A stretch of DNA of 64,000 nucleotides, from contig JARFXQ010000001.1 in NCBI GenBank assembly GCA_029194725.1, forward strand, positions 124,001 through 188,000, given 5' to 3'. This stretch comes from Nitrospira sp. (GTDB lineage Bacteria > Nitrospirota > Nitrospiria > Nitrospirales > Nitrospiraceae). The notes under the pieces were generated by a model. It made no database searches. It was not told the DNA's origin and saw nothing but the letters and a program-made list of their open reading frames with translations. The translations under genes were made by a program, and so were the position numbers. Below are positions 41,297-60,488 of this stretch, in pieces; position 1 is the stretch's first letter, and every line of letters starts with the position of its first letter.

Positions 41297-41829
41297 GACA
41301 TCCTCCTTATCCACGTATCGTTAAACTGCATACTTCTACCATGGCATTGTAATGCACGATATCGTACGACTACAACCCTATTTTCCGGCTAGGCGCGAGA
41401 GCTGAAGAGACCGAGATGGTTTCCGATCGCAGGAGAAGGGGGACCCGCATGGCATCGGCATTGCGTAACGTGTCACCCAGTGTGCGAACTGCCAAGCACT
41501 GAGGACACGGATGCCGGAGACGCTGTCGGAGAGTATGCCGCTCCCATTCGAGATTGACGATATCCAATCAGCCGGGATCAGTATACTGCACCGCCTCGAT
41601 TTACAGCTGAGTTCGGGGCCCACAAGAAGTACTGAATCGAAGAAAGAAACACGGGAGACGCTCATCCGGCGGCGATAACGGGGATGAGCTTCGCTCGATG
41701 AGCCGCCCGCCATCACGAGCGAGCTTGGTTTGGTCCACAACGAGATTCGAACCTGTGTTTAGATTCGACGACGGCTCCGCCATTTTTTATCGCTGGCTTC
41801 GCCGATTTTTCCAAGTCGGGACCGGTTCC
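41297..41829. other. Gene-poor stretch with a decayed tRNA-Glu fragment
   Basis: Overlapping leftward frames (41378-41740, 41601-41783) have no recognisable products and no ribosome sites. The stretch contains the third tRNA-Glu 3' fragment at 41731-41761. It reads as degraded insertion debris. Confidence 0.45.
41731..41761 (-). repeat. Decayed third copy of the tRNA-Glu 3' end (old attachment site)
   Basis: TGGTCCACAACGAGATTCG on the plus strand differs from the attachment repeat by one inserted base and a few substitutions and continues to ACCTGTGTTT. It lies 806 bases left of the intact left attachment repeat and in the same orientation. Confidence 0.6.
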
Positions 41830-42390
41830 TCATCTCTTAGTCTGCAACTCTACGTTAACGAGTTTTATTTCTGACAGGTCCGCGAGCCGCGGGCACCAAC
41901 GTGTGCCGGCACGCCACAAGGCTGAGTCCAGTTGGTCGTAGATCGTCCCTGGGTGCTCATAGTGAATGCCATAGGCATGTGTGGCAGCACATCGACAGGG
42001 GAATACGAACGACTTCGCCACGTCGTCGGACTCCACCTCGAATCGTGTCACGGCCAGGTCAAATGTGAGCCGGATCTTGAACCAACAATGAGCATGATGA
42101 TCGTCGACCTGCATCGATTGCTGATAGCACTGTAACACATCACGGACGGTCACCATGGCCAACGACGCGTTTCCCGAGAAAACCTCGGCTCGCTTGTCGA
42201 GCACCAACGCCTTGGCTAGGGACAAGGCATGCCCTACTTGAATCGGGTTCAAGAGGTCGAAAGCCGACTCATAAATGGTGATGTTGGGATCTACCTTGAA
42301 TTCGCGTAGGGATCCCCGCTTGGCCAACTCGAGGTTCCAATAAAAGTCTACGGCCGGGGACTGGCGGAAGCGAAAGGTCACCAGGTTCAT
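41830..42390 (-). CDS. Protein of unknown function between the old and current attachment sites
   Basis: Not recognised. 186 residues beginning MNLVTFRFRQSPAVDFYWNL, soluble, with three Cys in the second half and a helical segment around ALSLAKALVLDKRAEVFSGN. No signal peptide. It lies just outside the 12.5 kb element, between the decayed and intact tRNA-Glu 3' fragments, so it is a plausible leftover of an earlier element at the same site. The frame is open and compact but has no other support. Confidence 0.45.
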   Translation of the reverse strand: MNLVTFRFRQSPAVDFYWNLELAKRGSLREFKVDPNITIYESAFDLLNPIQVGHALSLAKALVLDKRAEVFSGNASLAMVTVRDVLQCYQQSMQVDDHHAHCWFKIRLTFDLAVTRFEVESDDVAKSFVFPCRCAATHAYGIHYEHPGTIYDQLDSALWRAGTRWCPRLADLSEIKLVNVELQTKR

Positions 42391-42536
42391 AATTCACCCC
42401 CCGTCACTAAGGTTAGCTATATTGGGAACCTCCGGGAAGGTACTCGGTCACGATAAATCTACCCAACTTCTGCAACATCTTCAGCTGCCTTTTGACGGAA
42501 GCTTGAACTTCGCCAGGCCTCCAGGAAAAGGAAAGG

Positions 42537-42582
42537 GTGGTGGTCCCAACGGGATTCGAACCCGTGTTTAAGCCTTGAGAGG
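42537..42582 (-). repeat. Left attachment site (displaced tRNA-Glu 3' half)
   Basis: Identical over 46 bases to 54990-55035. It reads, on the minus strand, from the anticodon loop through the T-arm (GGGTTCGAATCCC) to the acceptor 3' strand and CCA. It diverges immediately after the shared GAGAGG, ACGGAGG here versus GCTCCG at the intact tRNA. Confidence 0.92.
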
Positions 42583-43060: not shown

Positions 43061-43504
43061 ATGAAAGCTCTTGTGACCGAATTTCATGCGCTCGATATCA
43101 CTCAACTGAACCGAGGGTGGCTTCATCCAAACACGACGTTTGACTGGGTATGGCGCACGAACAAGGGAGCCCAAATAGCGACCGTGAAGATTACGGTGCT
43201 TGAGTCAGCCGTTGAGCTCTGGTTCCCGATAGAATCCACGAGAGCAATCCAGCCTGTGTCCTTGATCTATTCAGCCGGTCCACAAGGAGGCAAGCGTCCC
43301 TGGTTCGCCTGTCCCCAATGTGAACGACGAGTGGGGATCCTGTATCACGTCCCCTCTCGCCCGTTTTTCTGCCGGCGATGCTGTGACCTTGCCTATCCCT
43401 CTCAATATCAGGCTCGGAATCGAAGCTATGGACGGCGCTTCCGAGGCATCACACAACGAGAACGAGAGAGACTGAGTGTGAGCCGTCCGCCTGATTGCCA
43501 ATGA
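43061..43504 (+). CDS. Zinc-ribbon protein of a mobile-element type, unknown function
   Basis: 147 residues. Two CxxC pairs, WFACPQCERRVG and FFCRRCCDLAYPSQ, form a zinc ribbon in the C-terminal half, a pattern seen in many uncharacterised proteins of bacterial islands. The N-terminal half is beta-rich (FDWVWRTNKGAQIATVKITV). The tail YGRRFRGITQRERERLSVS is Arg-rich. The last part and the 190 bases after it are duplicated at 45903-46150 with the rest of the gene missing there, so it belongs to a repeated module within the element. Confidence 0.6.
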   Translation: MKALVTEFHALDITQLNRGWLHPNTTFDWVWRTNKGAQIATVKITVLESAVELWFPIESTRAIQPVSLIYSAGPQGGKRPWFACPQCERRVGILYHVPSRPFFCRRCCDLAYPSQYQARNRSYGRRFRGITQRERERLSVSRPPDCQ

Positions 43505-45902: not shown

Positions 45903-45989
45903 TCAAGCAAGTGGCATCGCGAGTATGGGAGGCGGTATCGAGGCATCACACAGCAAGCACGAGACAGGCGAGTGAGCTATCCCACATGA
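45903..45989 (+). pseudogene. Truncated second copy of the zinc-ribbon gene (C-terminal end only)
   Basis: The plus frame reads SSKWHREYGRRYRGITQQAR, then DRRVSYPT and a stop at 45987-45989. This matches the tail YGRRFRGITQRERERLSVS of the gene at 43061. The zinc-binding part is absent, so only the end of the gene and its downstream module were kept. Confidence 0.7.
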
Positions 45990-46294: not shown

Positions 46295-46762
46295 TCATGG
46301 AACGTCGATAGCTAATTGAGAAAAACTAGCCAGCACGCTCTGCACAAAAGCTTCAATCCCTGGCGCTGAAGCCGCGCGCGGGCCTGCCACGTTTAACCTG
46401 TGAATCTGGTGCTGCTCACAAAACTCCTGAAGTTCTTCGTACCAGTGTTCTCCAGGAAACACATGCAACCAAGGCCGCTTCTGCTTTCGAGCCTGTTGAG
46501 CGGTAAACAGGCTGCCGCCGGCTAGTTCCTTCCCTAAGGTGATGATCAGCGTGGCATCGGCATCACGAATGTTCCAGGTCGTGCGTTGGCGATAGTTCCG
46601 TGTGGGAGTCTCGACGAGGGTATAGCAATCTGGAATGACTCCATCGTCTGCACGCCGTTCCTTGGGACACCAGCCGCCATGAGGAATCTCATGTTGGATG
46701 GCCCAGTCCAATGCGGCACGATCGGCGCCGGTCTGTCCGTCGGAGATGATTCGCAACTTCAT
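46295..46762 (-). CDS. Circularly permuted YpsA/LOG-like protein (putative molybdenum carrier family)
   Basis: 155 residues from ATG 46762. It begins LRIISDGQTGADRAALDWAI, then GWCPKERRADDGVIPDCYTL, RQRTTWNIRDADATLIITLG and KRPWLHVFPGEHWYEELQEF, the sequence of motifs in the cpYpsA (putative Mo-carrier) family. These are Rossmann-like proteins that probably bind a nucleotide; members are frequent on mobile elements. The function here is unknown. The gene is in the leftward arm of the element, next to a lipoprotein gene. Confidence 0.8.
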   Translation of the reverse strand: MKLRIISDGQTGADRAALDWAIQHEIPHGGWCPKERRADDGVIPDCYTLVETPTRNYRQRTTWNIRDADATLIITLGKELAGGSLFTAQQARKQKRPWLHVFPGEHWYEELQEFCEQHQIHRLNVAGPRAASAPGIEAFVQSVLASFSQLAIDVP

Positions 46763-46804
46763 CCGGATCACCAAGTGAGGTTGAAATGTTGCGATAGATC
46801 CTCG

Positions 46805-48778: not shown

Positions 48779-48827
48779 TGTACACATCTTCAAACGGTCG
48801 TATGGTCTTGTGTACAAGGAGGCTTCC

Positions 48828-49511
48828 ATGACAAACCGAGCAGCTATAGCGTACATGCGAGTGAGCACAGCCGACCAGGGGAACAAGGGCAACGGTCTTG
48901 CCGCTCAACGCGAGACCATTGGTCGTTTCGCTGCAGCCGAGGGGTTTACGATTTTTGAGTGGGTGGAGGAAGTGGAAACCGGTAAAGGCAACGATGCCCT
49001 TGCGAGACGACCCAAACTTGCCGAAGTGCTTCGTCAAGCGAGGCGGATTAAAGCACCCGTCATTGTGTCGAAGCTCGATCGGCTCTCAAGGGATGTCGCC
49101 TTTATCGCCGGCCTGATGGCCGAGCGAGTTCCATTCATCGTCGCCGATCTCGGTCCAGACGTGGACCCATTCGTGCTGCATTTGTATGCGGCTTTGAGCG
49201 AGAAAGAGCGAAGCATGATCTCAGTCAGGACCCGCGAGGCTCTGGCCGCCTTGAAGCGTCGAGGGGTCAGACTCGGCAATCCCTCACATCGAAGCCTGTG
49301 CGATGCTTCGCGCATCGGCGCCAATGCTCGACAACGATCCGCCGATACATTTGCATGTTCGATCAAGCCAATGATCCAGGGCTATCGTGCTCAGGGCCTT
49401 ACGCTTCGTGCCGCAGCTGAAGCTATGAACCACAGCGGTGTACCGACGTATCGAGGGACGGGAACCTGGACAGCTACACAACTCTCACGCATCATGGCCC
49501 GCAGTTCATGA
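48828..49511 (+). CDS. Serine recombinase (resolvase/invertase family)
   Basis: 227 residues from ATG 48828, which follows AAGGAGG. The catalytic domain has the active Ser in [56 protein letters not shown] and [20 protein letters not shown], in resolvase order. The C-terminal helix-turn-helix is weak but present ([20 protein letters not shown]). Resolvases of this size cut and rejoin DNA at res or inversion sites. Within the element it could resolve replication dimers or invert a segment; no paired sites were identified. Confidence 0.88.
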
Positions 49512-50275: not shown

Positions 50276-50461
50276 ATGGAGCAATTAATTACCACCTCAG
50301 ACGCAGCGAGACTTCTCAACCGATCAGCGGATCGTGTGCGAGATTACGAGCGTGAAGGAAAGTTGCCGGCTCAGAAAACCCCAGGTGGGCAACGCCTATT
50401 CAAGACGAGCGATGTGGAACGCTTAGCTAAGGAACTGGGAGCAATGAAGAAGAGCACATAA
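50276..50461 (+). CDS. MerR/excisionase-type helix-turn-helix protein
   Basis: 61 residues. TTSDAARLLNRSADRVRDYE is the MerR-type helix-turn-helix, followed by REGKLPAQKTPGGQRLFKTS, the wing, and a short helix. At this length it has no effector domain, like the small regulators and recombination directionality factors of phages and islands. AGGAGG precedes the start. It is 57 bases upstream of the gene that leads into the replication protein. Confidence 0.75.
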   Translation: MEQLITTSDAARLLNRSADRVRDYEREGKLPAQKTPGGQRLFKTSDVERLAKELGAMKKST

Positions 50462-50517: not shown

Positions 50518-50781
50518 ATGGTGACTGCAATCTTATCTCAGGAACACTCGGCGATCAACTCCCCGACACTTGACGAGGCGGACAGTCGAGAAGAAATCGT
50601 CATCCGAATCGGTCTTAATGGACTTCGAGGCGTGGAAATAATCGCTGACCAGTCCGAGGCGCAAAGTAATCTGCAACAGCTTTGGGACGCTCTACGCTGT
50701 CCGCTGGAAGATGAAATGGGCCGGCTGCTCAATGACAGAGGGTTTACTTGCATGGAAGGGCGAGTTGGAGCCACGCTCTGA
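50518..50781 (+). CDS. Unknown small protein, translationally coupled to the replication protein
   Basis: Not recognised. 87 residues, acidic and soluble (SPTLDEADSREEIVIRIGLN; EAQSNLQQLWDALRCPLEDE). Its stop TGA overlaps the start ATG of the next gene as TGATG, so translation of the replication protein is likely coupled to it. It could act as a small partner or regulator. Only position supports any role. Confidence 0.55.
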   Translation: MVTAILSQEHSAINSPTLDEADSREEIVIRIGLNGLRGVEIIADQSEAQSNLQQLWDALRCPLEDEMGRLLNDRGFTCMEGRVGATL

Positions 50782-53048
50782 TGAGCCTCGCACCTGAACA
50801 TCTTTCTGACTTAAAGGCATCTGGCCTGACGGATGACACGATCAGCGCATGTAGGTTTACAGCAGTCCGTCCGCACGATAACAGGTTACGCGGTGTGGCT
50901 TCCGCATACCTGATTCCATATTTCGATCTGGACGGTCGGCCCAATGGCGTCGAACGCTGGAAACTGTTTCCACCCATCGTCAGACCGAACGGAACACAGA
51001 AATACCATCAACCTCTCAACTCCGCTCCTGCCTTGTACCTCCCGCCGCTGCACCCCTGGGACGACATTGCCCGTGATTCTCAGCGCTCCATCTGCATCAC
51101 TGAGGGAGAAAAGAAAGCGGCGGCGCTGTGCCAGACCAGCATTCCAACATTCGGTGTCGCTGGGGTGTGGAACTGGCGGCAACGGTTCGATCATGGGGAA
51201 CGGCTTGTTATTCCTTCAGTCGATCAAATCGTGTGGAAAGATCGCGATGTAGAGCTGATCCCAGATAGCGACGTGTGGCGTGAGGAGAAACGGCACGCGC
51301 TGTGCGGATTCTATTCGTTCGCACAAGAACTCGTCTCCCGTGGGGCCAACGTGCGTTTCATTGTCCTGCCAGAAGATGGACACGGGAAAGTCGGCGTGGA
51401 TGATTGGCTGGTGAAGACCGGCGCACGGTGGAAAGACTATTGGCCGTTGCTGGATCGGATCGCCCTCGATGATCGTCGGTTGGTGAAAGCGGCGAAGTGG
51501 TGGCAAGAGTGGCGAGAGAAGCAGGCGTTACAGCTTTCGTTGCAACAGGCATCACAGGAACCCATGGAAATCATGGATCTGGCCGGCTCCTTCCAGGTCC
51601 GCTTTCCGACTCACCATGTTGCGCTCAGCTTTCAGCGTCTCTCCGAAAATGGACGCGGGGTCAGTGCCGAATTGACTGTGACCGTTGGTCAAATCGATCT
51701 CCTTGGCGAGACCGATATCGGATTGAAATCTGATTCGAGTCGAGACAAACTCGCAAAGTCTTTGTCACGCACGGCTAATCATGTTCCCTGGAAACACCTG
51801 CTAGAGCGAGCTTGCGGCGAAGTCCTCAAGCGCCATCGGCACGGCGAGCCCATCATCGAGTTGGAGCCAGCCGAATCCACCCATACCCCGTTCGTGCTGA
51901 ATCCGATTGTCTACCGTGGGCATCAGACGCTCATTTTCGCTCCGGGTGGATCCTGCAAATCGTATCTCGCACTGTACATCGCTCTCCTCACGATTGCGGG
52001 ACAACGTCAGAACGGGATTGCGGCCATCCAGACGAACGTCTTATATCTCGATTGGGAGCTCGATCATGAAACGGTCGGCGCTCGGCTGAAAGCCTTGCAT
52101 ACTGGCCATCCTGAATTGGCCCACTGTCGCCCCTCTTACCGCCGCTGCACGCAACCCTTGCATTTAGAAGCCCTTCAGATCGCCGTCGAAGTGGCCCAGC
52201 GACATATCGGACTTGTAATTGTCGATTCTGCCGCTATGGCATGCGGTGGGGATCTACACTCTCCCGAATCGGCCATTAAGTTACAGCAAGCCCTCCGCCG
52301 GATCGGCTGTGCCTCGATTGTCCTGGCGCACGTGTCGAAGACGACGGCAGAAGGACAAGACAAGAGCGCCTACGGGACGGTGTTCTTTCGGGAGTTGGCC
52401 CGCAATGTCTGGGAACTCTCCAGGCCCGAGGGCTCTGACCGCGTCGTCCTCTCCCAAACTGGCACGACCTGCAAGAATTCATTCGGACGTAAGCAAAATC
52501 CGCTGGGCTTCGAGTTCTCCTTCGGCTCTGACCGCGTGCAAATCTCGTCCTTCAACCCCGCCGATGAAGAGGAGAGTGGCTTTGAGGATAAGCTCCCGCT
52601 GCGGGATCGAATCCAGCGTCTCTTACGGGATAAGACTTCCCGCAGTTCGCAAGAGATCGCCGATGCGCTTCACGCCCCTCTGAGTTCAGTGAAATCCGGG
52701 CTCTCGCAGGGCCGTGGGAAGATGTTTGAGCGGTCCGGATCGCAGCGCGACGGCAAGTGGACCCTGACAGCCTTCGCGTTGACCCACTTTTCATCGTTGA
52801 GATCGATCGTTGGGGCCTCCATCGTTGATCCATCGTTGCAACCGTTGAGCGGGGATGAGGGAAAGCAGCGTAACTATTTGAATCCACATGACAAACCAAT
52901 CGTTGAAGACATCGTTGATGATCGTTGTACCCCATCGTTGTTGAAACAAGGGGGGTATATTAATACCCCCCCTTCAACGATCAACGATTCAACGATAAAA
53001 ACTCTCTCCCATTCCCAACCGGAGGAGTTCATCGACCTTGCTGATTGA
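50781..53048 (+). CDS. TOPRIM (DUF3854) plus RecA-like ATPase replication protein
   Basis: 755 residues. Residues 1-240 carry a DUF3854/TOPRIM-like primase domain (SICITEGEKKAAALCQ about 104-119; PDSDVW about 161). Residues 370-520 form a RepA/AAA_25-type ATPase: Walker A-like FAPGGSCKSYLALYIA with Cys for Gly in GxGKS, VLYLDWELDHE, Walker B-like VGLVIVDSAAM, and SIVLAHVSKTTAEGQDKSAY. Residues 607-665 look like a winged helix (SSQEIADALHAPLSSVKSGL). This architecture occurs in replication proteins of phages and plasmid-like islands. The last 260 bases overlap an iteron array. Start ATG 50781, coupled to the preceding gene. Confidence 0.82.
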   Translation: MSLAPEHLSDLKASGLTDDTISACRFTAVRPHDNRLRGVASAYLIPYFDLDGRPNGVERWKLFPPIVRPNGTQKYHQPLNSAPALYLPPLHPWDDIARDSQRSICITEGEKKAAALCQTSIPTFGVAGVWNWRQRFDHGERLVIPSVDQIVWKDRDVELIPDSDVWREEKRHALCGFYSFAQELVSRGANVRFIVLPEDGHGKVGVDDWLVKTGARWKDYWPLLDRIALDDRRLVKAAKWWQEWREKQALQLSLQQASQEPMEIMDLAGSFQVRFPTHHVALSFQRLSENGRGVSAELTVTVGQIDLLGETDIGLKSDSSRDKLAKSLSRTANHVPWKHLLERACGEVLKRHRHGEPIIELEPAESTHTPFVLNPIVYRGHQTLIFAPGGSCKSYLALYIALLTIAGQRQNGIAAIQTNVLYLDWELDHETVGARLKALHTGHPELAHCRPSYRRCTQPLHLEALQIAVEVAQRHIGLVIVDSAAMACGGDLHSPESAIKLQQALRRIGCASIVLAHVSKTTAEGQDKSAYGTVFFRELARNVWELSRPEGSDRVVLSQTGTTCKNSFGRKQNPLGFEFSFGSDRVQISSFNPADEEESGFEDKLPLRDRIQRLLRDKTSRSSQEIADALHAPLSSVKSGLSQGRGKMFERSGSQRDGKWTLTAFALTHFSSLRSIVGASIVDPSLQPLSGDEGKQRNYLNPHDKPIVEDIVDDRCTPSLLKQGGYINTPPSTINDSTIKTLSHSQPEEFIDLAD
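52793..52996. repeat. Iteron array ATCGTTGA with central hairpin: candidate replication origin
   Basis: ATCGTTG occurs at 52793, 52806, 52821, 52832, 52899, 52911, 52921 and 52934, with a variant ACCGTTGA at 52841. Three inverted copies (TCAACGAT) follow at 52974, 52981 and 52989. Between them is a hairpin, GGGGGGTAT (52950-52958) and ATACCCCCC (52963-52971) with an ATTA loop. The direct copies lie in all three reading frames of the host gene, so they are selected as DNA, not as protein repeats. The layout fits an iteron origin bound by the replication protein. Confidence 0.72.
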
Positions 53049-53454
53049 AGCTCTTTATCCACTCCATATTCGTCGCCCAGGTGGAGACCTTCACTTACTC
53101 CCCGGGCAGCTGGTTGAATTGGATGCCAAGGAAGCCCAGAGACTCCTTACGAAGGCCCACGGCAAGGTGCGGGTCATTGCCCAGGAGGAAATCGTCATAG
53201 AGCCGGCCATGAAGCCGGACGGCAATCGCTTATCGCCGATCTTTTGGGAGCGAGCGGACGGATCTATTGTTGGCCCAGCACAGCCGGAGTTCTTCGCCAG
53301 AGTCGGCTGTGGAAACCGTGAAGAAGATTTCTGGCTTGTGATCCAGTTTGATGGACAGACAGTGTGGATTCGACCCGACAAACTGCGAACCGAGTGGGCA
53401 TATGACCAGCAAGTCTTGCCCAAGATCATCGAGCCCGTGAAGGAGCCCAGGTGA
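53038..53454 (+). CDS. Unknown protein following the replication gene
   Basis: Not recognised. 138 residues beginning at TTG 53038 (LIEALYPLHIRRPGGDLHLL), with GGAGGAG upstream; it overlaps the replication gene by 11 bases. Beta-rich segments and a conserved-looking EDFWLVIQFDGQTVWIRPDK. No Cys pairs, signal or membrane span. It is probably a small cytoplasmic protein of the element, perhaps acting with the primase/ATPase. Confidence 0.5.
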   Translation: MLIEALYPLHIRRPGGDLHLLPGQLVELDAKEAQRLLTKAHGKVRVIAQEEIVIEPAMKPDGNRLSPIFWERADGSIVGPAQPEFFARVGCGNREEDFWLVIQFDGQTVWIRPDKLRTEWAYDQQVLPKIIEPVKEPR

Positions 53455-53509: not shown

Positions 53510-53788
53510 ATGAGACCCCTCACCCTTGCAGAGGCCGCTCAGTTCCTCAGGATGTCCCGATCCAGCTTGTACCAGCGGAAGGACATTCCGCGATACCGGC
53601 GGCCCGGCTCGCGGGTGATGCTGTTCGATCAGGAGGAGCTGGAGGTTTGGTTAAAACAAGGGCGCGTGGTTGCGGAGAAGCAACCGGCGCTTCAATCGAT
53701 GATGCCCGATACCTTGCCAGCAACTGATCCGGGCATCGTGGACATTTCCGTCCCGCCTGTTTACCATCGCAGCGCCCGGTATCGGTGA
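53510..53788 (+). CDS. Helix-turn-helix excisionase-like protein
   Basis: 92 residues. LTLAEAAQFLRMSRSSLYQR with KDIPRYRRPGSRVMLFDQEE is the HTH_17/excisionase form: a helix-turn-helix then an Arg-rich wing, as in recombination directionality factors. GAGAGG lies upstream. It overlaps the integrase start by 4 bases, so excisionase and integrase are probably co-translated, a normal pairing for elements that excise. Confidence 0.78.
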   Translation: MRPLTLAEAAQFLRMSRSSLYQRKDIPRYRRPGSRVMLFDQEELEVWLKQGRVVAEKQPALQSMMPDTLPATDPGIVDISVPPVYHRSARYR

Positions 53789-55047
53789 ACACAGCTATGA
53801 CGTACAGCATCACCACACGACAGACGAAGAAGGGCGTGGCGTTCGATCTGTACATCCGCTGGAAGGGGAAACGACACCGTCCCCTGCTCGGATACGACCT
53901 GTCGAAGGAACAGGCCGAGAACGCGGCGATCGCCATGATCGCGAAAATTCATCGGGGTGAGCCGTCCGCAGTGGCCCCGGCTCCCATTTCTCCAACTCTG
54001 AAAGCCTTCCTTCCCCTCTTCTGGCAGACCATGCATGTGAAGAAGAGGTTCGACCTGGCCCGACCTGAATCAGTGATCGAGACGCACTTGCTACCACGGT
54101 TTGGAGATCGCCCGCTTGATTCCCTCAGGGCTGAGGACGGATTGGCTTACATCACCTCTCGGATCAAGGCGAAGGCTGCGCCCTGGACTATTAGGCGTGA
54201 GTGGACTGTCCTCATGCGGATTCTGAATCTCGCCGTCGATTTCGACAAGCTGGATAAGAACCGGCTGAAGCAGCTGGAACTCCCCGACGTGGCAACCCGT
54301 GAGCGAGTGGGAACCATTGAGGAGTTAAAGACGATCAAGCTGAAAGCCGAGGAGCGTCGGCTCAAGTTGACTCAGGCAAACCAATACGACCCGGCAGAAC
54401 TGTGGCGAATCGTGACGGTTGCCCTCAACACCGGCCTCCGTGAAGCGAAGATTCTGGAGATCGATCGGACCTGGATGCGGAAGCGGGATGATGGCTGGTG
54501 GTTGATCCTGCCTCCGGCACGGAGCCGACTGAAGCAGACACCCCGTGAAATTCCCCTCACTCCTGCCGCCTACGCGGCCCTACGCGGAGAGATCGCCCAC
54601 GTGGATGGCAGAATCTTCAGGCGATGGACTCCCGCCGCGTTTAGCATCTTCTGGAAGCGTTTAGTGACGGAAGCGAAGGTCGTTGATCTCCACTTCCATG
54701 ACCTCCGGCACACGTTCGCCACCTGGCTGCAAAACCTCGGCGTGCCGCTCGAAGTGCGAGCCGCGTTGTTGGGACATCGGCTGAGAGGATTCGGACAGGA
54801 TCAACTCGGTGGAGAATCGATGACGGCTGCGTATTCACACGGCGGATACGGATGGAATCAACAGCTCCGTGAAGCCGTGACCCGCCTCCACACCGCCCTT
54901 TTGTCCTATGGATTGTCCTATGGAAATTCAACCGACGAGGCAACCGCTGTTGTAAGAGTGGCTAACGCACGGAAAGAAGAAGGGAAAGAGTGGTGGTCCC
55001 AACGGGATTCGAACCCGTGTTTAAGCCTTGAGAGGGCTCCGTCCTAG
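53785..55047 (+). CDS. Tyrosine integrase whose stop codon lies inside tRNA-Glu
   Basis: 420 residues from GTG 53785. An N-terminal arm-binding domain and SAM-like core (about residues 70-170) precede the catalytic domain: Arg in LNTGLREAKILEID, HDLRHTFATWLQNL (His-x-x-Arg), LLGHRLRG, and the nucleophile Tyr in MTAAYSHGGY. It sits at the right end, next to its target tRNA-Glu. The last codons read the tRNA gene backwards (WWSQRDSNPCLSLERAPS) to a stop at 55045. In the excised circle the frame would continue past the att core into 42583 and end with a different, acidic tail. Confidence 0.92.
   Translation: MNTAMTYSITTRQTKKGVAFDLYIRWKGKRHRPLLGYDLSKEQAENAAIAMIAKIHRGEPSAVAPAPISPTLKAFLPLFWQTMHVKKRFDLARPESVIETHLLPRFGDRPLDSLRAEDGLAYITSRIKAKAAPWTIRREWTVLMRILNLAVDFDKLDKNRLKQLELPDVATRERVGTIEELKTIKLKAEERRLKLTQANQYDPAELWRIVTVALNTGLREAKILEIDRTWMRKRDDGWWLILPPARSRLKQTPREIPLTPAAYAALRGEIAHVDGRIFRRWTPAAFSIFWKRLVTEAKVVDLHFHDLRHTFATWLQNLGVPLEVRAALLGHRLRGFGQDQLGGESMTAAYSHGGYGWNQQLREAVTRLHTALLSYGLSYGNSTDEATAVVRVANARKEEGKEWWSQRDSNPCLSLERAPS
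54990..55035 (-). repeat. Right attachment site within intact tRNA-Glu
   Basis: Same 46 bases as 42537-42582. It covers the 3' half of tRNA-Glu, so the insertion rebuilt a complete tRNA from the element's own copy. Confidence 0.92.
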
Positions 55048-55068
55048 GCCAGGCTAGACGATGGGACC
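54991..55068 (-). tRNA. tRNA-Glu (anticodon CUC)
   Basis: On the minus strand the acceptor GGTCCCA (55068-55062) pairs with TGGGACC, followed by A73 and encoded CCA (54991-54993). The D-arm GTCTAG, the anticodon stem GAGCC/GGCTT with loop CTCTCAA (anticodon CTC), and the T-arm ACGGG-TTCGAAT-CCCGT are all present. It is the target of the integrative element. Confidence 0.93.
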
Positions 55069-55295
55069 ATTCCAGAACTGTCCGAAGGTGGACCGTAGCA
55101 TAAGCGGTTTTCTGATTGCAACGAAGCGCCGAGGCGACTCCCGCGGGACATTGGAAGCGATTTTCTGCTTGCGACGACACAGCATTTTCCCTATAAGACA
55201 TGGGATCTATTGGTTGAACTACCCGAAGTAGGCCGATAGGCACCATGAAAGAACCATTTCACGATGAGGTTTCATTACATACCGGTCGTCTTATC

Positions 55296-55730
55296 ATGAT
55301 CGAAGGCAGGACTCACGACATACTCCGTCGCCCAGCACTGATGCTTATTTTGGGTGGCGCGACTGTTCTCTTGGTAAGCTGTGCAAGTCTTATAGGAAGT
55401 GGAGCGCCAACGCTGCATTGTCCGGACGCAGTCCAGGCCAAGGTCAGTGCAGCGCAGCCAACCGTTCATGTCTCATACAGAGAACCATCGTTTACCTCAA
55501 AAGACAATCCCCTGACAAGCCTCGCCAAAACGAGCATCTACTACGATCTGGGTAATGGGCGTACACTTGCCAAAGAGGTACCGGCAACGCGATCGTCCGG
55601 AGGCGGAGAAATATCCGAGACCATCACGGTTGCGGTGAAATCCAAGGATACCCAGTCCGTAAAGATTTGCGTCACGGCAACCGATCGCGATGGAAATGAA
55701 AGTAGGATGCCCCCCCTAAGCGCACCCTGA
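55296..55730 (+). CDS. Lipoprotein of unknown function
   Basis: 144 residues from ATG 55296; the frame is open from 55245. The signal ALMLILGGATVLLVSCASLI has the lipobox LVSC. The mature part is beta-rich (TVHVSYREPSFTSKDNPLTS; ISETITVAVKSKDTQSVKIC) with a final CVTATDRDGNESRMPP, which resembles a single Ig/fibronectin-like domain. It is probably membrane-anchored. It lies in the chromosomal flank right of the element. Confidence 0.6.
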   Translation: MIEGRTHDILRRPALMLILGGATVLLVSCASLIGSGAPTLHCPDAVQAKVSAAQPTVHVSYREPSFTSKDNPLTSLAKTSIYYDLGNGRTLAKEVPATRSSGGGEISETITVAVKSKDTQSVKICVTATDRDGNESRMPPLSAP

Positions 55731-55925
55731 TCCACGCGTGGAAGAGCTCTTTGGGCACATCCCATTGGGCCGTTTGTATGGGGCCATAATATATGGCTCC
55801 GGCCGCGCTGAACGCTCTTGACAGAAGCGAGCAGAAGCCCTAGTTTGCCTGATGTTTGATGAAACTCCATATACTCTGCATCAACTCCACACGACCTGGG
55901 GAACATCAAGGTTCGAGGTTGTCCA

Positions 55926-56459
55926 ATGGATGATCCAGTGGCATTCCGTAGGACCGAATCCAATGGTCGTACGGCAACAGCGGGAGTGTCATTCAAATCA
56001 GGACTCGCGATTGGGATCGGATCCAACATTTTTCGAAACACCAACGGCGTCGTCAGGATTCATGGGAAAGAGCAACTCGTCATTGAGGTAAAACCTGAGC
56101 GAGGACTGCTTCTCACTACCCTCGATCTCTACAACGAGCGCTGCATCCGTATCGCACACCTGCGTAGAAACGTTCTCACATTGAACGACAGCGGACGATT
56201 TACCGCCGATGTTCCGCTCGGTCAAAGCCTTTCGTCAGTTGATGCTCCGACTGTTCTGGTGACAGATATGCAGTCTGGTCATGTCGTGCTCGAAGTGCGA
56301 ATGACGTCGGAGCATCGAGTCGACCTCACCTGCGCAAAGCTGTACTCGCACAAGGGAATGCCGGTGGAGATCACTCCCCACTACTGCCGGATCGGCTCAG
56401 GCACGACGCTGTTCGGAAACATCGTGGAAGCTCGCGGCGGGCCGGTTATTCTCGATTGA
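55926..56459 (+). CDS. Unknown beta-rich protein
   Basis: Not recognised. 177 residues starting MDDPVAFRRTESNGRTATAG. The chain alternates short strands (EQLVIEVKPERGLLLTTLDL; APTVLVTDMQSGHVVLEVRM), suggesting a beta-sandwich. No signal peptide. It ends just before the start of the following frame, so the genes may be coupled. No function offered. Confidence 0.55.
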   Translation: MDDPVAFRRTESNGRTATAGVSFKSGLAIGIGSNIFRNTNGVVRIHGKEQLVIEVKPERGLLLTTLDLYNERCIRIAHLRRNVLTLNDSGRFTADVPLGQSLSSVDAPTVLVTDMQSGHVVLEVRMTSEHRVDLTCAKLYSHKGMPVEITPHYCRIGSGTTLFGNIVEARGGPVILD

Positions 56460-56569
56460 CCGTGCTCGTTTTTCACAGCGTCCCGACCCTCGATTTTTTC
56501 GATACCTACCGCCTTCAGAAAAGCAGGAACCGTTTTGCCCTTATGCATCCTTTCTCTAGAATAGCGATT

Positions 56570-57001
56570 ATGACCGAGATCCCAAAACCTACCGTTCAAG
56601 CATTTCTCGTCTGCGATCACGTGATCGAGGACAGCCTCACGAAAAAGAAAAGTCTGATCGGAATCTTTACCCACCTACAGGCCGCCACCTTTCCATTCCA
56701 GCATCAACAGATGGGCCTCTACTTCTGCCTCACCGATGCCGAAGGCCTGTACCACTTTGATATCGACCTGATCTATCTGAACACCGAACAACTAGTCTGT
56801 CGGGCCACACTTCCCAACATCGAGATCGGCGATCGCCTCCAGATTTCAGACTTCGGGATCAACATTCCTCTGTTGATCTTTCCCGCGCCTGGTCGGTATG
56901 AATTCCGGCTACGCATGGAGGGCCATCTCATCGCCCAAAAGGATTTCAACGTCATGCCGGTGCCGATGTCAAACCCCTCCGCCACCGATCCCTCTACTTA
57001 G
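56570..57001 (+). CDS. DUF6941-like protein, unknown function
   Basis: 143 residues from ATG 56570; the open frame extends to 56456 but the upstream part is not conserved-looking. PTVQAFLVCDHVIEDSLTKK with KSLIGIFTH and the later beta-strands (GRYEFRLRMEGHLIAQKDFN) match a family of small bacterial proteins known only as DUF6941. The molecule is predicted to be a cytoplasmic beta-sandwich. No function is known. Confidence 0.6.
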   Translation: MTEIPKPTVQAFLVCDHVIEDSLTKKKSLIGIFTHLQAATFPFQHQQMGLYFCLTDAEGLYHFDIDLIYLNTEQLVCRATLPNIEIGDRLQISDFGINIPLLIFPAPGRYEFRLRMEGHLIAQKDFNVMPVPMSNPSATDPST

Positions 57002-57097
57002 CCTTTTCCCATTCCTCCCGTCAGACCGTCTATGGTAGAACTTCAGTCTGGACCTCCCGTCCACACATGACCCTGCGAAGGATTCACGCAAGATTCC

Positions 57098-58804
57098 ATG
57101 AGCACACCGGAGCCCTCAACTTCCTCGAATTTTATACGAGAGATCGTGGCAGCCGACCGTGCGGCAGGCAAACATGGCGGACGGGTCGTCACGCGATTTC
57201 CTCCCGAGCCAAACGGATATCTCCATATTGGTCACGCCAAGGCCATCGTGCTGAATTTTGGGATCGCGAATGAGGCTTCCGGGGGGATCTGTCACCTAAG
57301 ATTCGACGATACAAATCCTACCACCGAAGACCCCGAGTACGTTCAAGCCATACAGGAAGACGTCCGCTGGTTGGGGTTTGACTGGCACGACAGGCTGTTC
57401 TATGCCTCGGATTATTTTGAGCAGCTCTATGCTTTTGCGATCAGCTTGATCAAGAAAGACAAAGCCTACGTCGACAGCCTCACAGCGGATCAAATCCGAG
57501 AACATCGTGGTACCCTGACCGAATCAGGCCGTGACAGTCCTTATCGGACCCGGTCCGTCGACGAGAATGTGAATCTCTTCGCCCGCATGCGAGCCGGAGA
57601 ATTCGCCGACGGAACCCATGTCCTGCGCGCGAAAATCGATATGGGTTCCCCAAATATCAATCTGCGAGATCCGATCCTCTACCGGATCCGGCATGCCATC
57701 CACTATCGGACAGGAACCGCATGGTGCATCTATCCCTCGTATGATTTTGCTCACCCGTTGTCTGACGCCATCGAAGGAATCACGCACTCTATCTGTACGT
57801 TGGAGTTTGAAGATCACCGCCCCCTCTACGATTGGGTCGTTGCCGAAGCCGACAGTCCCCATCGCCCACAGCAAATCGAATTTGCCCGACTGAATCTCAC
57901 CTCCACCGTGATGAGTAAGCGCAAGCTTCTCGAATTGGTCGACAAGAAGTTGGTGAGCGGCTGGGATGATCCACGCCTCCCCACCTTGAAAGGTCTCCGT
58001 CGCCGAGGGGTGACTCCAGAAGCGATTCGCGCATTTTGCGAACACATCGGCGTCGCCAAGCGCGACGCAATCGTCGAGATGCAGCTGCTCGAACACTTCA
58101 TCCGAGAGGACTTGAACAGACGGTCGCCGCGTGTGATGGCGGTGCTCCGACCATTGAAAGTCGTACTCGACAACTATCCTGACGGTGTCGTTGAAGAGCT
58201 TGACGCAGTGAATAATCCGGAGGACATCTCAGCGGGGACGAGAAAGGTTCCTTTCTCAAGAACGCTGTACATCGAGCAGGACGATTTCAGGGAGAATCCG
58301 CCGAAACAGTTCTTTCGTCTCGCGCCTGGGCGGGAGGTCCGGCTGCGCTATGGGTACATCATTAAGTGTGTGAGCGCGACAAAGGACCCTCAGACCGGCG
58401 CCGTTACCGAGCTGCATTGCACCTACGACCCTGAGACCAGAAGCGGATCGGCACAAGAACAGCGCAAGGTGAAAGCCACCATTCACTGGGTGTCGGCATC
58501 ACATGCAGTCACGGCAGCCGTGCGGCTCTATCATCCACTTTTTCTTTCCGACCGAGCCAATCTTTCAGCTGAACAGGACTGGACAGGATCGTTGAACCCC
58601 CAGTCGTTGGAACTCCTCACCGGCTGCCTGGTTGAGCCAAGCCTTCACTCAGCCGCGCCTGGTTCCCGCTTCCAATTCGAGCGTCAGGGGTACTTTTGCG
58701 TCGATCCCGATTCATTACCCGACGCCCTGATTTTCAACCGAACCGTGTCTCTCAAAGATACCTGGGCCAGGGTTGAGAAGGCTCGGCAAACACCCCCGCG
58801 CTGA
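57098..58804 (+). CDS. glnS: Glutaminyl-tRNA synthetase
   Basis: 568 residues, the normal length for bacterial GlnRS. The class I signatures are visible: the HIGH motif in [20 protein letters not shown] (about residue 45) and the KMSKS-like [36 protein letters not shown] and the C-terminal anticodon-binding barrel confirm GlnRS over GluRS. Its presence implies direct charging of tRNA-Gln, two genes for which lie at 63.4-63.6 kb. ATG 57098 is followed by a short non-conserved leader. Confidence 0.96.
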
Positions 58805-58861
58805 TGTTAACGAACGTTCTCGCGACTGTACTTCATTCGGTTTCGACGTTACACTACATCC

Positions 58862-59062
58862 ATGACCTGTCCTCTGTGCCAGCAATCCACGACTTGGGAA
58901 GCAAACCCCTGGCGTCCATTCTGTTCTGAGCGTTGTCAGCTTACGGATTTGGGAACGTGGGCCGCGGAACAATACCGTATTCCCGGTTCGCGACTCACAG
59001 CTGATAGGGTCATACCCGAGTCCATCGGTGAGACCGAGCATCAGGGCCAAGGCCAAACATAG
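58862..59062 (+). CDS. yacG: DNA gyrase inhibitor YacG-type zinc protein
   Basis: 66 residues. The YacG zinc finger is complete: MTCPLCQQS and [20 protein letters not shown] (CxxC ... CxxxC). In E. coli YacG binds gyrase subunit B and inhibits it. The tail is short and polar. It follows glnS by 57 bases. Confidence 0.88.
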
Positions 59063-59261
59063 GGGTGAAGAACGGTTCGACAACCGAGCATCTGCTTCCA
59101 GGAGCGACAATGTTATGTTCGACCTCACCGAACCCAAACTCCCTTGCTCCAGGCAATGATCGATCCTGTTGATAACAGAATCTGCTTTCTTCACTATTGG
59201 CAAGGCGGAGTGAACTTGCTAAGAGGATATTTCTTGCTCACCTCGCGGAGGGGAATGCTCT

Positions 59262-60305
59262 ATGCTCGCGACTAAAGGCTACGCGGCGATGGCCGCCAAA
59301 GAGAGATTGCAACCGTTTTCCTTCGAACGACGTGAAGTCGGTCCGCACGACGTCTTGATCACGATCTCGCATTGCGGCATCTGCCACTCAGATATCCATC
59401 AGGCTCGTAACGAGTGGGGCATCTCCCTGTTCCCAATGGTACCAGGGCACGAGATCGTCGGAACTGTCGCACAGGTCGGCACGTCCGTGACTGCCTTCAA
59501 GGTTGGTGATCGAGCCGGTGTCGGCTGCTTTGTGGATTCCTGCCGGACCTGTACGGCATGCCGCGAGGGCCTGGAACAATATTGCGACGGAGGCACACTT
59601 TGGACCTACAGTGGACAGGATAGGGCAGGCCGGATCACGCAAGGCGGCTATTCGACCCAGATCGTGGTAGACGACAAATATGTGCTCCGAATTCCCTCGG
59701 CGCTCTCGCCCGCGGGAGCGGCCCCCCTGCTCTGTGCGGGAATTACGACCTACTCTCCCCTGCGTCAATGGGGCGTCGGTCGTTATCACAAACTCGCCGT
59801 CGTCGGCCTGGGGGGTCTCGGTCACATGGCGGTAAAGATCGCCAAGGCGATGGGTACCGAGGTCACGGTGTTTAGCACATCGGAGAATAAACGGGAAGAA
59901 GCGAAGCGGCTGGGCGCTGCGAACTTTGCCGCGACATCAAGCCCTCAGACCTTTACCAAGTTCCAAGGGTACTTCCACTATGTCCTCGATACGGTTTCCG
60001 CGCCACATGATTACAATGCCTATTTGAACCTCCTCAAGACGGATGGCACCATGATCCTCGTGGGTGCACCCGAAACGCCGACTCCTGTTCAGGCGTTCTC
60101 GCTCATTTTCAAGCGACGGCGTCTCGCCGGCTCTCTCATCGGCGGGATCAAAGAAACGCAAAAGATGCTCGACTTTTGCGCGCAACATCGGATCGAGTCG
60201 GACATTGAGCTGATCCCCATCCAGCAGGTCAATGAGGCGTACGAACGGGTACTCCGTGGAGACGTGAAGTTTCGATTCGTGATCGACCTCAGTACGTTGA
60301 CCTAA
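59262..60305 (+). CDS. Zinc-dependent alcohol dehydrogenase (NADP-type, cinnamyl/YahK-like)
   Basis: 347 residues of the medium-chain dehydrogenase family. ISHCGICHSDIHQARNEWG gives the catalytic zinc Cys and the start of the fold, MVPGHEIVGTVAQVGTSV the His/Glu, and GCFVDSCRTCTACREGLEQY the structural zinc Cys cluster. The cofactor motif is VVGLGGLGHMAVKIAKAMG. It resembles broad aldehyde reductases such as YahK/Ahr, which reduce aldehydes with NADPH. A GGAG site lies upstream. Its physiological substrate is not evident. Confidence 0.93.
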   Translation: MLATKGYAAMAAKERLQPFSFERREVGPHDVLITISHCGICHSDIHQARNEWGISLFPMVPGHEIVGTVAQVGTSVTAFKVGDRAGVGCFVDSCRTCTACREGLEQYCDGGTLWTYSGQDRAGRITQGGYSTQIVVDDKYVLRIPSALSPAGAAPLLCAGITTYSPLRQWGVGRYHKLAVVGLGGLGHMAVKIAKAMGTEVTVFSTSENKREEAKRLGAANFAATSSPQTFTKFQGYFHYVLDTVSAPHDYNAYLNLLKTDGTMILVGAPETPTPVQAFSLIFKRRRLAGSLIGGIKETQKMLDFCAQHRIESDIELIPIQQVNEAYERVLRGDVKFRFVIDLSTLT

Positions 60306-60488
60306 CCCCTGGATAGCGCCGGCGCTGCCAACTCTTCGCGTGATTCGTCATGCGCATCCGCGAAGCGAACGCCTGAGCTTCAACCTCAGATTCTGTTCGG
60401 AAACTAACGGGAGACGACTGATCGCCATTCCAGACCGTTGAATTCTCCTGACCGATCACCTACAGTAGCGCCGATCGGAGCCCATGGT

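Follow-up and report, generated by a model that had tools for sequence, protein, structure and literature searches.

The integrative element and its initiator gene

The window (the whole 64-kb stretch of Nitrospira DNA that was analysed) carries a replication initiator gene (rep, 50781–53048, plus strand) within a mobile element whose integration target is a tRNA-Glu (CTC) gene (54991–55068, minus strand; ARAGORN and Rfam). The right attachment repeat (54991–55035) lies inside the tRNA gene and the left one (42538–42582) is a copy of the tRNA 3′ end, a 56-nt direct repeat pairing the left border with 54980–55035 at 96%. In a relative (G291) the site is empty, the sequences corresponding to window positions 41716–42582 and 54991–60355 being joined (L184, 5822–5866) with the tRNA intact. 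From the repeat of the tRNA 3′ end and the flanks joined in G291 the intervening DNA is recognized as a 12.45-kb integrative element, which thus has the integrase, the att repeats at a tRNA 3′ end and the empty site in a relative that characterize tRNA-integrating mobile elements. Upstream of rep on the same strand are genes for a serine recombinase of the resolvase family (48810–49511; Pfam PF00239, E 9e-22) and a small MerR/HTH_17 regulator (50276–50461; Pfam). The end of rep is overlapped by an ORF with no Pfam or PHROG match (53038–53454, plus strand), which is followed by genes for an excisionase/AlpA-like HTH protein (53510–53788, plus strand; HTH_17, 1.7e-8; PHROG 66, excisionase and transcriptional regulator) and a tyrosine integrase (53785–55047, plus strand; Pfam PF00589; PHROG 1, 6.5e-37) whose end lies inside the tRNA gene. 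The element also encodes a cpYpsA SLOG-family protein (46295–46774, minus strand, 1.5e-52), a nucleotide-binding family often tied to stress or defence functions, and contains a 55-nt repeat (43416–43470 and 45913–45967, 75% identical), the first copy of which lies within a zinc-ribbon-like ORF and which is perhaps a decayed gene duplicate.

The initiator is a 755 aa protein in which Pfam, AlphaFold2 and VIA-align together distinguish a DUF3854 (TOPRIM-like) domain, a RepA-type helicase, a winged helix and a disordered tail. Its Pfam matches are DUF3854 (1e-14) and AAA_25 (2.5e-14), the latter marking a RecA-type helicase motor (residues 373–522, 51897–52346) that is also supported by profile and structure. 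RSF1010 RepA (1g8y) was the top solved-structure profile match (1.2e-6) and the best structural match of the ATPase model after VIA-align realignment (Z 21.4, rmsd 2.5 over 216 residues, with the next rows close in Z); with Foldseek alone, chains of RAD51 and KaiC had headed the list, and the realignment then placed RSF1010 RepA at the top. By fold and profile the protein therefore has the RepA-type SF4 helicase (a predicted hexamer) of the IncQ/RSF1010 system. The motor does not match the SaPI/D5/VapE helicase class, and the prim/pol plus SF3 helicase combination of pRN1-type proteins is not the domain content of this initiator. No Pfam match to a separate RepC iteron-binding protein or RepB′ primase was obtained among the element ORFs tested. 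Behind the motor lies a C-terminal winged helix (residues 607–662, 52599–52766), identified at residues 602–663 by a profile search that matched winged-helix domains of solved structure and modelled by AlphaFold2 with pLDDT above 90 over most of the domain; it is the presumed reader of the repeats described below, also on the strength of its covariation with their sequence. Homologue alignments stop near residue 663, whereas the window ORF continues for about 90 residues further, and the last part of this extension (residues 677–755, 52809–53045) is a non-conserved tail of about 80 residues that is predicted to be disordered (pLDDT about 30), falls outside the aligned parts of the homologues and ends in the acidic sequence PEEFIDLAD (53019–53045).

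The repeat array and palindrome

The non-conserved tail is overprinted on an array of short repeats spanning 204 bases (52793–52996). Eight exact direct copies of ATCGTTG begin at 52793, 52806, 52821, 52832, 52899, 52911, 52921 and 52934, with one variant copy (ACCGTTG) at 52841 and three inverted copies at 52975, 52982 and 52990, counts that agree with the preliminary description. The direct copies form two groups (group 1, four exact copies and the variant, 52793–52847; group 2, four exact copies, 52899–52940; both plus strand), within each of which the copies are spaced by 10–15 bp and between which there is a 67-bp step. This step includes an AT-richer spacer (52863–52898) containing TAACTATTTGAATCCACA, similar to TAAGTATTTGGTCCACA in the homologous locus L007; its GC content is 39% against 57% for the gene, a modest difference over a short stretch. 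Group 2 is followed by a palindrome (52950–52971, GGGGGGTATATTAATACCCCCC) composed of GGGGGGTAT-ATTA-ATACCCCCC with G6TAT/ATAC6 arms, an element type that recurs in relatives, and then by the three inverted copies (52975–52996, minus strand). No T tract accompanies the hairpin, and a terminator scan returned nothing at 52950–52971, so that we rejected it as a candidate intrinsic transcription terminator.

The array stands out clearly from its surroundings. When the whole 64 kb was examined in 210-bp intervals, at least five copies of any 7-mer were found only at the ATCGTTG array, where the maximum reached 10 per interval, and 20,000 first-order Markov sequences simulated with the array's own composition never contained more than four. 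A pattern search for three consecutive ATCGTTG copies 3–30 bases apart found a single site in the assembly, a genome-wide uniqueness that refers to an assembly which is 78% complete. The codon frames of the direct copies are, in order, 2, 0, 0, 2, 0, 0, 1 and 2, and as all three frames are used the claim that this is not a protein repeat is borne out. That it sits at the 3′ end of the gene is correct in that it lies inside the end of the ORF, but since the homologue matches end near residue 663 it lies past the conserved protein. The array thus has the repeat arrangement of an iteron-type origin, with many short direct repeats of one word adjoining an initiator gene, and also the arrangement of the SaPI/SCCmec type, with iterons directly 3′ of a gene for a helicase with a C-terminal DNA-binding domain, except that the window array overlaps the end of that gene.

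Arrays, palindromes and winged helices in homologues

The homologues from the phylum that were matched through the winged helix and whose gene ends were read (L006–L013 and L016) all have an array beginning within about 45 bases of the stop codon, with a word that is private to each (among them ACCGTTAA, AGCGTAACA, TTGTTAAA, AAATAGGA and CGTTGCAG). A search of IMG/VR gave 138 relatives and 80 loci were retained; a narrow search of genome contigs gave eight loci. Statistics were calculated on 76 non-redundant loci from uncultivated phages, Nitrospira and Chloroflexi. An array of at least five copies was present at the 3′ end of the homologous gene in 34 of these 76 loci, where 0.11 would be expected on the basis of other windows of those loci. 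At least seven copies were present in 22 loci, a number that was reached in no background window out of 4,654. An obvious array is missing from about half of the homologues. The check proposed in the preliminary description, a search for the same array at the ends of homologous genes, therefore yielded arrays with different words, so that the refuting condition named there, homologous elements without the repeats, did not hold. Because these same-place arrays differ in word it is their position and layout that are conserved and not their sequence. For most homologues the array is located outside the coding sequence.

In the usual order the forward iterons come first and the inverted iterons last, and between them stands a palindrome whose arms are a C-run and a G-run and whose core is TTTA or TATA. 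C-run/G-run palindromes with an AT core were found at 28 of the 76 gene ends as compared with 7 of 1,571 background windows; the window palindrome is of the reverse type, with the G-run first, which it has in common with L060 and L065. A stem-loop 3′ of the replication gene, as in pRN1-type plasmids, is thus present in the window and in 28 of the 76 relatives, though far shorter. Five loci (L037, L085, L112, L119 and L126) have few or no iterons and yet carry the C-run/AT-core/G-run palindrome directly after the gene, and this retention suggests that the palindrome may be the minimal conserved core of the unit. No GC-skew shift was detected at the gene end in 43 loci (p 0.95). In L125 the gene is a DUF3854–AAA_25 fusion like that of the window, and in L042 and L043 the gene directly upstream matches either the DnaG zinc ribbon or, weakly, Toprim_2. 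Among curated plasmids there was no homologue of the ATPase–winged-helix part and a single match to the DUF3854 part, so that the relatives include no autonomous replicon of this type. Searches of cultured phages gave matches confined to the DUF3854 part with P0001, none with L048 or L115 and weak ATPase matches with L125.

The relation between word and protein was assessed on 41 deduplicated loci with 2,000 permutations. Similarity between words was correlated with identity between winged helices (rho 0.157, reached in 3 of 2,000 permutations) and not with identity between ATPase domains (rho 0.027, 592 of 2,000); the partial correlation of word with winged helix was 0.155 (2 of 2,000), and the correlation was 0.166 (7 of 2,000) when Nitrospira-type loci were left out. 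The word therefore tracks the winged helix, an effect that is small but specific to the domain expected to read it. Elements at the same tRNA-Glu site provide a second comparison. The integrase regions of L182 (G200) and L183 (G403) have 83% and 81% nucleotide identity to that of the window element and their words, which adjoin those elements' own rep genes, are CGTTGCA and GTTAACA respectively; L181 has an integrase that is 82% identical in protein, and neither an array nor a rep homologue was seen in it. As elements at the same site with close integrases have other words or none, the array goes with rep and not with the integrase. The L182 and L183 elements are about 17 kb in length, with rep genes that differ from that of the window, and the G200 rep reading frame is seemingly split in two (L016 and L034). 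L181 takes up the whole of contig C30 (12,951 bp) of G000, the assembly that also contains the window element; its tRNA-Glu(CTC) has a matching flank, and it may be a variant, in tandem or from another strain, at this site. Its cargo includes ArsR- and transporter-like arsenic genes and, by eye, a relaxase-like ORF.

Arrays placed inside the 3′ end of the ORF, as in the window, also occur with other motors, namely DUF3854 with a VapE-like motor (L024, L025 and L030) and DUF3854 with DUF3631 (L017). Further in-ORF arrays were found in L015 (an AAA_16-matching ATPase), L031/L199 (AAA_25) and L194, and L191 was counted among them by word and position. All of the initiators with in-ORF arrays end acidic, and for the seven groups that were counted, the window's among them, ten residues sum to a net charge of −3 to −5. 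Where the array follows the stop codon, such a tip was present in 2 of 36 proteins (p 2e-5, a post hoc value obtained with some related sequences). Besides the PEEFIDLAD of the window the tips seen were FDDIEILDE, TDDWQEVD, TPEDFEE, TEDDLL and PVEEEL. These acidic tips suggest that the frame may be kept open across the origin for the sake of the C-terminal peptide, a lead that arose post hoc. Four phage initiators with the array after the stop codon (L048, L057, L102 and L114) have a -PF end behind acidic residues (DEPF, EAPF, DKVPF and EEEAPF), which recalls the C-terminal tip of SSB.

The array as a candidate replication origin

We interpret 52793–52996 as the replication origin of the element, whose own self-loading helicase would read it through the winged helix, and would give this reading a probability of roughly 0.85. 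It builds on what was observed of the array (that it exists, that its place and architecture are conserved and that it is no protein repeat), on the domains of the initiator, on the borders of the element and on the covariation of word with winged helix. Weighing against it are the homologues that have no obvious array, although some of these keep the palindrome, the GC skew that does not shift at the gene end, the curated plasmids that gave no ATPase–winged-helix homologue, and the small size of the covariation. The iteron-origin layout put forward in the preliminary description holds up through the same-place arrays in homologues and a word that follows the winged helix, but it is not a plain one as the palindrome and the inverted copies are added to it.

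One alternative is that the array is an operator, the iterons allowing the initiator or the MerR-type protein to regulate rep or xis-int while replication begins elsewhere. It does lie upstream of the next ORFs and of xis-int, and iterons in known plasmids often double as control sites, but its place is 3′ of rep and away from the rep promoter, no promoter-like site overlapping it was found, distantly related phages keep an array beside the gene, and a palindrome surrounded by 6 to 12 copies would be oversized for an operator; we therefore regard this explanation as unlikely. The proximity of attR (about 2 kb away) and of the adjoining xis and int genes might instead point to arm-type sites through which integrase or excisionase would serve excision. 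This is very improbable as it is already contradicted by the different words of L182 and L183, and the lack of an array in L181, despite their close integrases. Repeat arrays close to a maintenance gene may also act as centromeres, so a partition site (parS/parC-like) or other maintenance site was considered; as no ParA/ParB-like gene is present among the element ORFs tested, and the gene conserved alongside the arrays is a helicase, we give this little credence. The non-conserved tail might finally invite the view that the array is a low-complexity repeat at the protein level or a cluster that arose by chance where the end of the gene evolves fast, but this is already refuted by the use of three codon frames and both strands, by a copy number never reached in the 20,000 simulations and by the position of the array outside the gene in most homologues.

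If the array is the origin of the element, we infer a sequence of binding, hexamer loading, melting and priming that would be used after excision. The C-terminal winged helix of the initiator would bind both sets of iterons flanking the GC-armed palindrome, and the RecA-type (SF4, RSF1010-RepA-like) domain would assemble on the array as one or two hexamers. The ring might then load itself once either the AT-richer spacer or the palindrome has been opened by it, a primer being supplied by the fused TOPRIM-like domain or, in some relatives, by a separate DnaG-like gene product, with the rest left to host enzymes. Firing of the origin would follow excision from the tRNA-Glu gene.

The layout is known in principle from SaPI, SCCmec, P4, RSF1010 and pRN1. 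In SaPIs iterons lie directly downstream of the gene for an initiator that is a self-acting helicase and carries a DNA-binding domain at its C terminus, as shown biochemically for SCCmec Cch2 (PMC7581432), and the window element resembles SaPI Rep/ori and Cch2 in being integrative, in the proposed binding of two hexamers and in having iterons 3′ of the helicase gene (PMC7581432). It differs in that a RecA-type AAA_25/RSF1010-RepA motor is fused to a TOPRIM-like domain (VapE-like motors being present in other DUF3854 elements), in that a C/G-run palindrome often forms the centre of the arrays and in that the window array lies inside the ORF. At RSF1010 (IncQ) oriV the iterons are read by RepC, RepA unwinds and RepB′ primes (PMC4234260, PMC8965321); the helicase fold, the iterons and the stem-loops near the origin are shared, whereas here reader and motor form one polypeptide with a TOPRIM-like domain, in place of three proteins, and the word is 7–8 bp. 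ORF904, the replication protein of the archaeal plasmid pRN1, has its winged helix at the C terminus, and its gene is followed on the 3′ side by an essential stem-loop (PMC4234260). A winged helix and a stem-loop are placed alike here, but ORF904 combines prim/pol with an SF3 helicase, and pRN1 has a 100-bp stem-loop and no iterons. The lactococcal phages TP901-1 and Tuc2009 likewise have direct-repeat origins within their own initiator genes (PMC8965321), although these initiators are replisome organizers and not helicase fusions. The Vibrio PLE is also integrated, with its own initiator and an iteron origin (PMC7145576), but that initiator is of the RepA_N family without a helicase or primase domain and a helper phage is needed. 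The unit in the window therefore mixes features of known systems, with an RSF1010-type motor in a SaPI-type layout, and belongs to none of them.

In the open-access literature we found no description of an SF4 helicase–winged-helix fusion with a palindrome-centred origin. A broader proposal, to which we would give even odds, is that such fusions of an RSF1010-RepA-type helicase with a winged helix constitute a widespread and apparently undescribed initiator class. Its members, carried by integrative elements as well as by uncultivated phages, would each have an iteron word not shared with the others, and their palindrome-centred origins would be fixed at the 3′ ends of the initiator genes themselves. 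In some of them the ORF would stay open through the origin so that the disordered, overprinted tail carries an acidic tip which may recruit or restrain a partner. The 3′ end of the AAA_25–winged-helix gene would provide a sequence rule by which the origins of such phages and elements could be located, and the dozens of natural protein–word pairs may allow the reading of many DNA words by one winged helix to be decoded. The presence of the roles of RSF1010 RepC and RepA in one polypeptide would bear on the origin of self-loading ring helicases, and for Nitrospira the element offers a candidate replicon.
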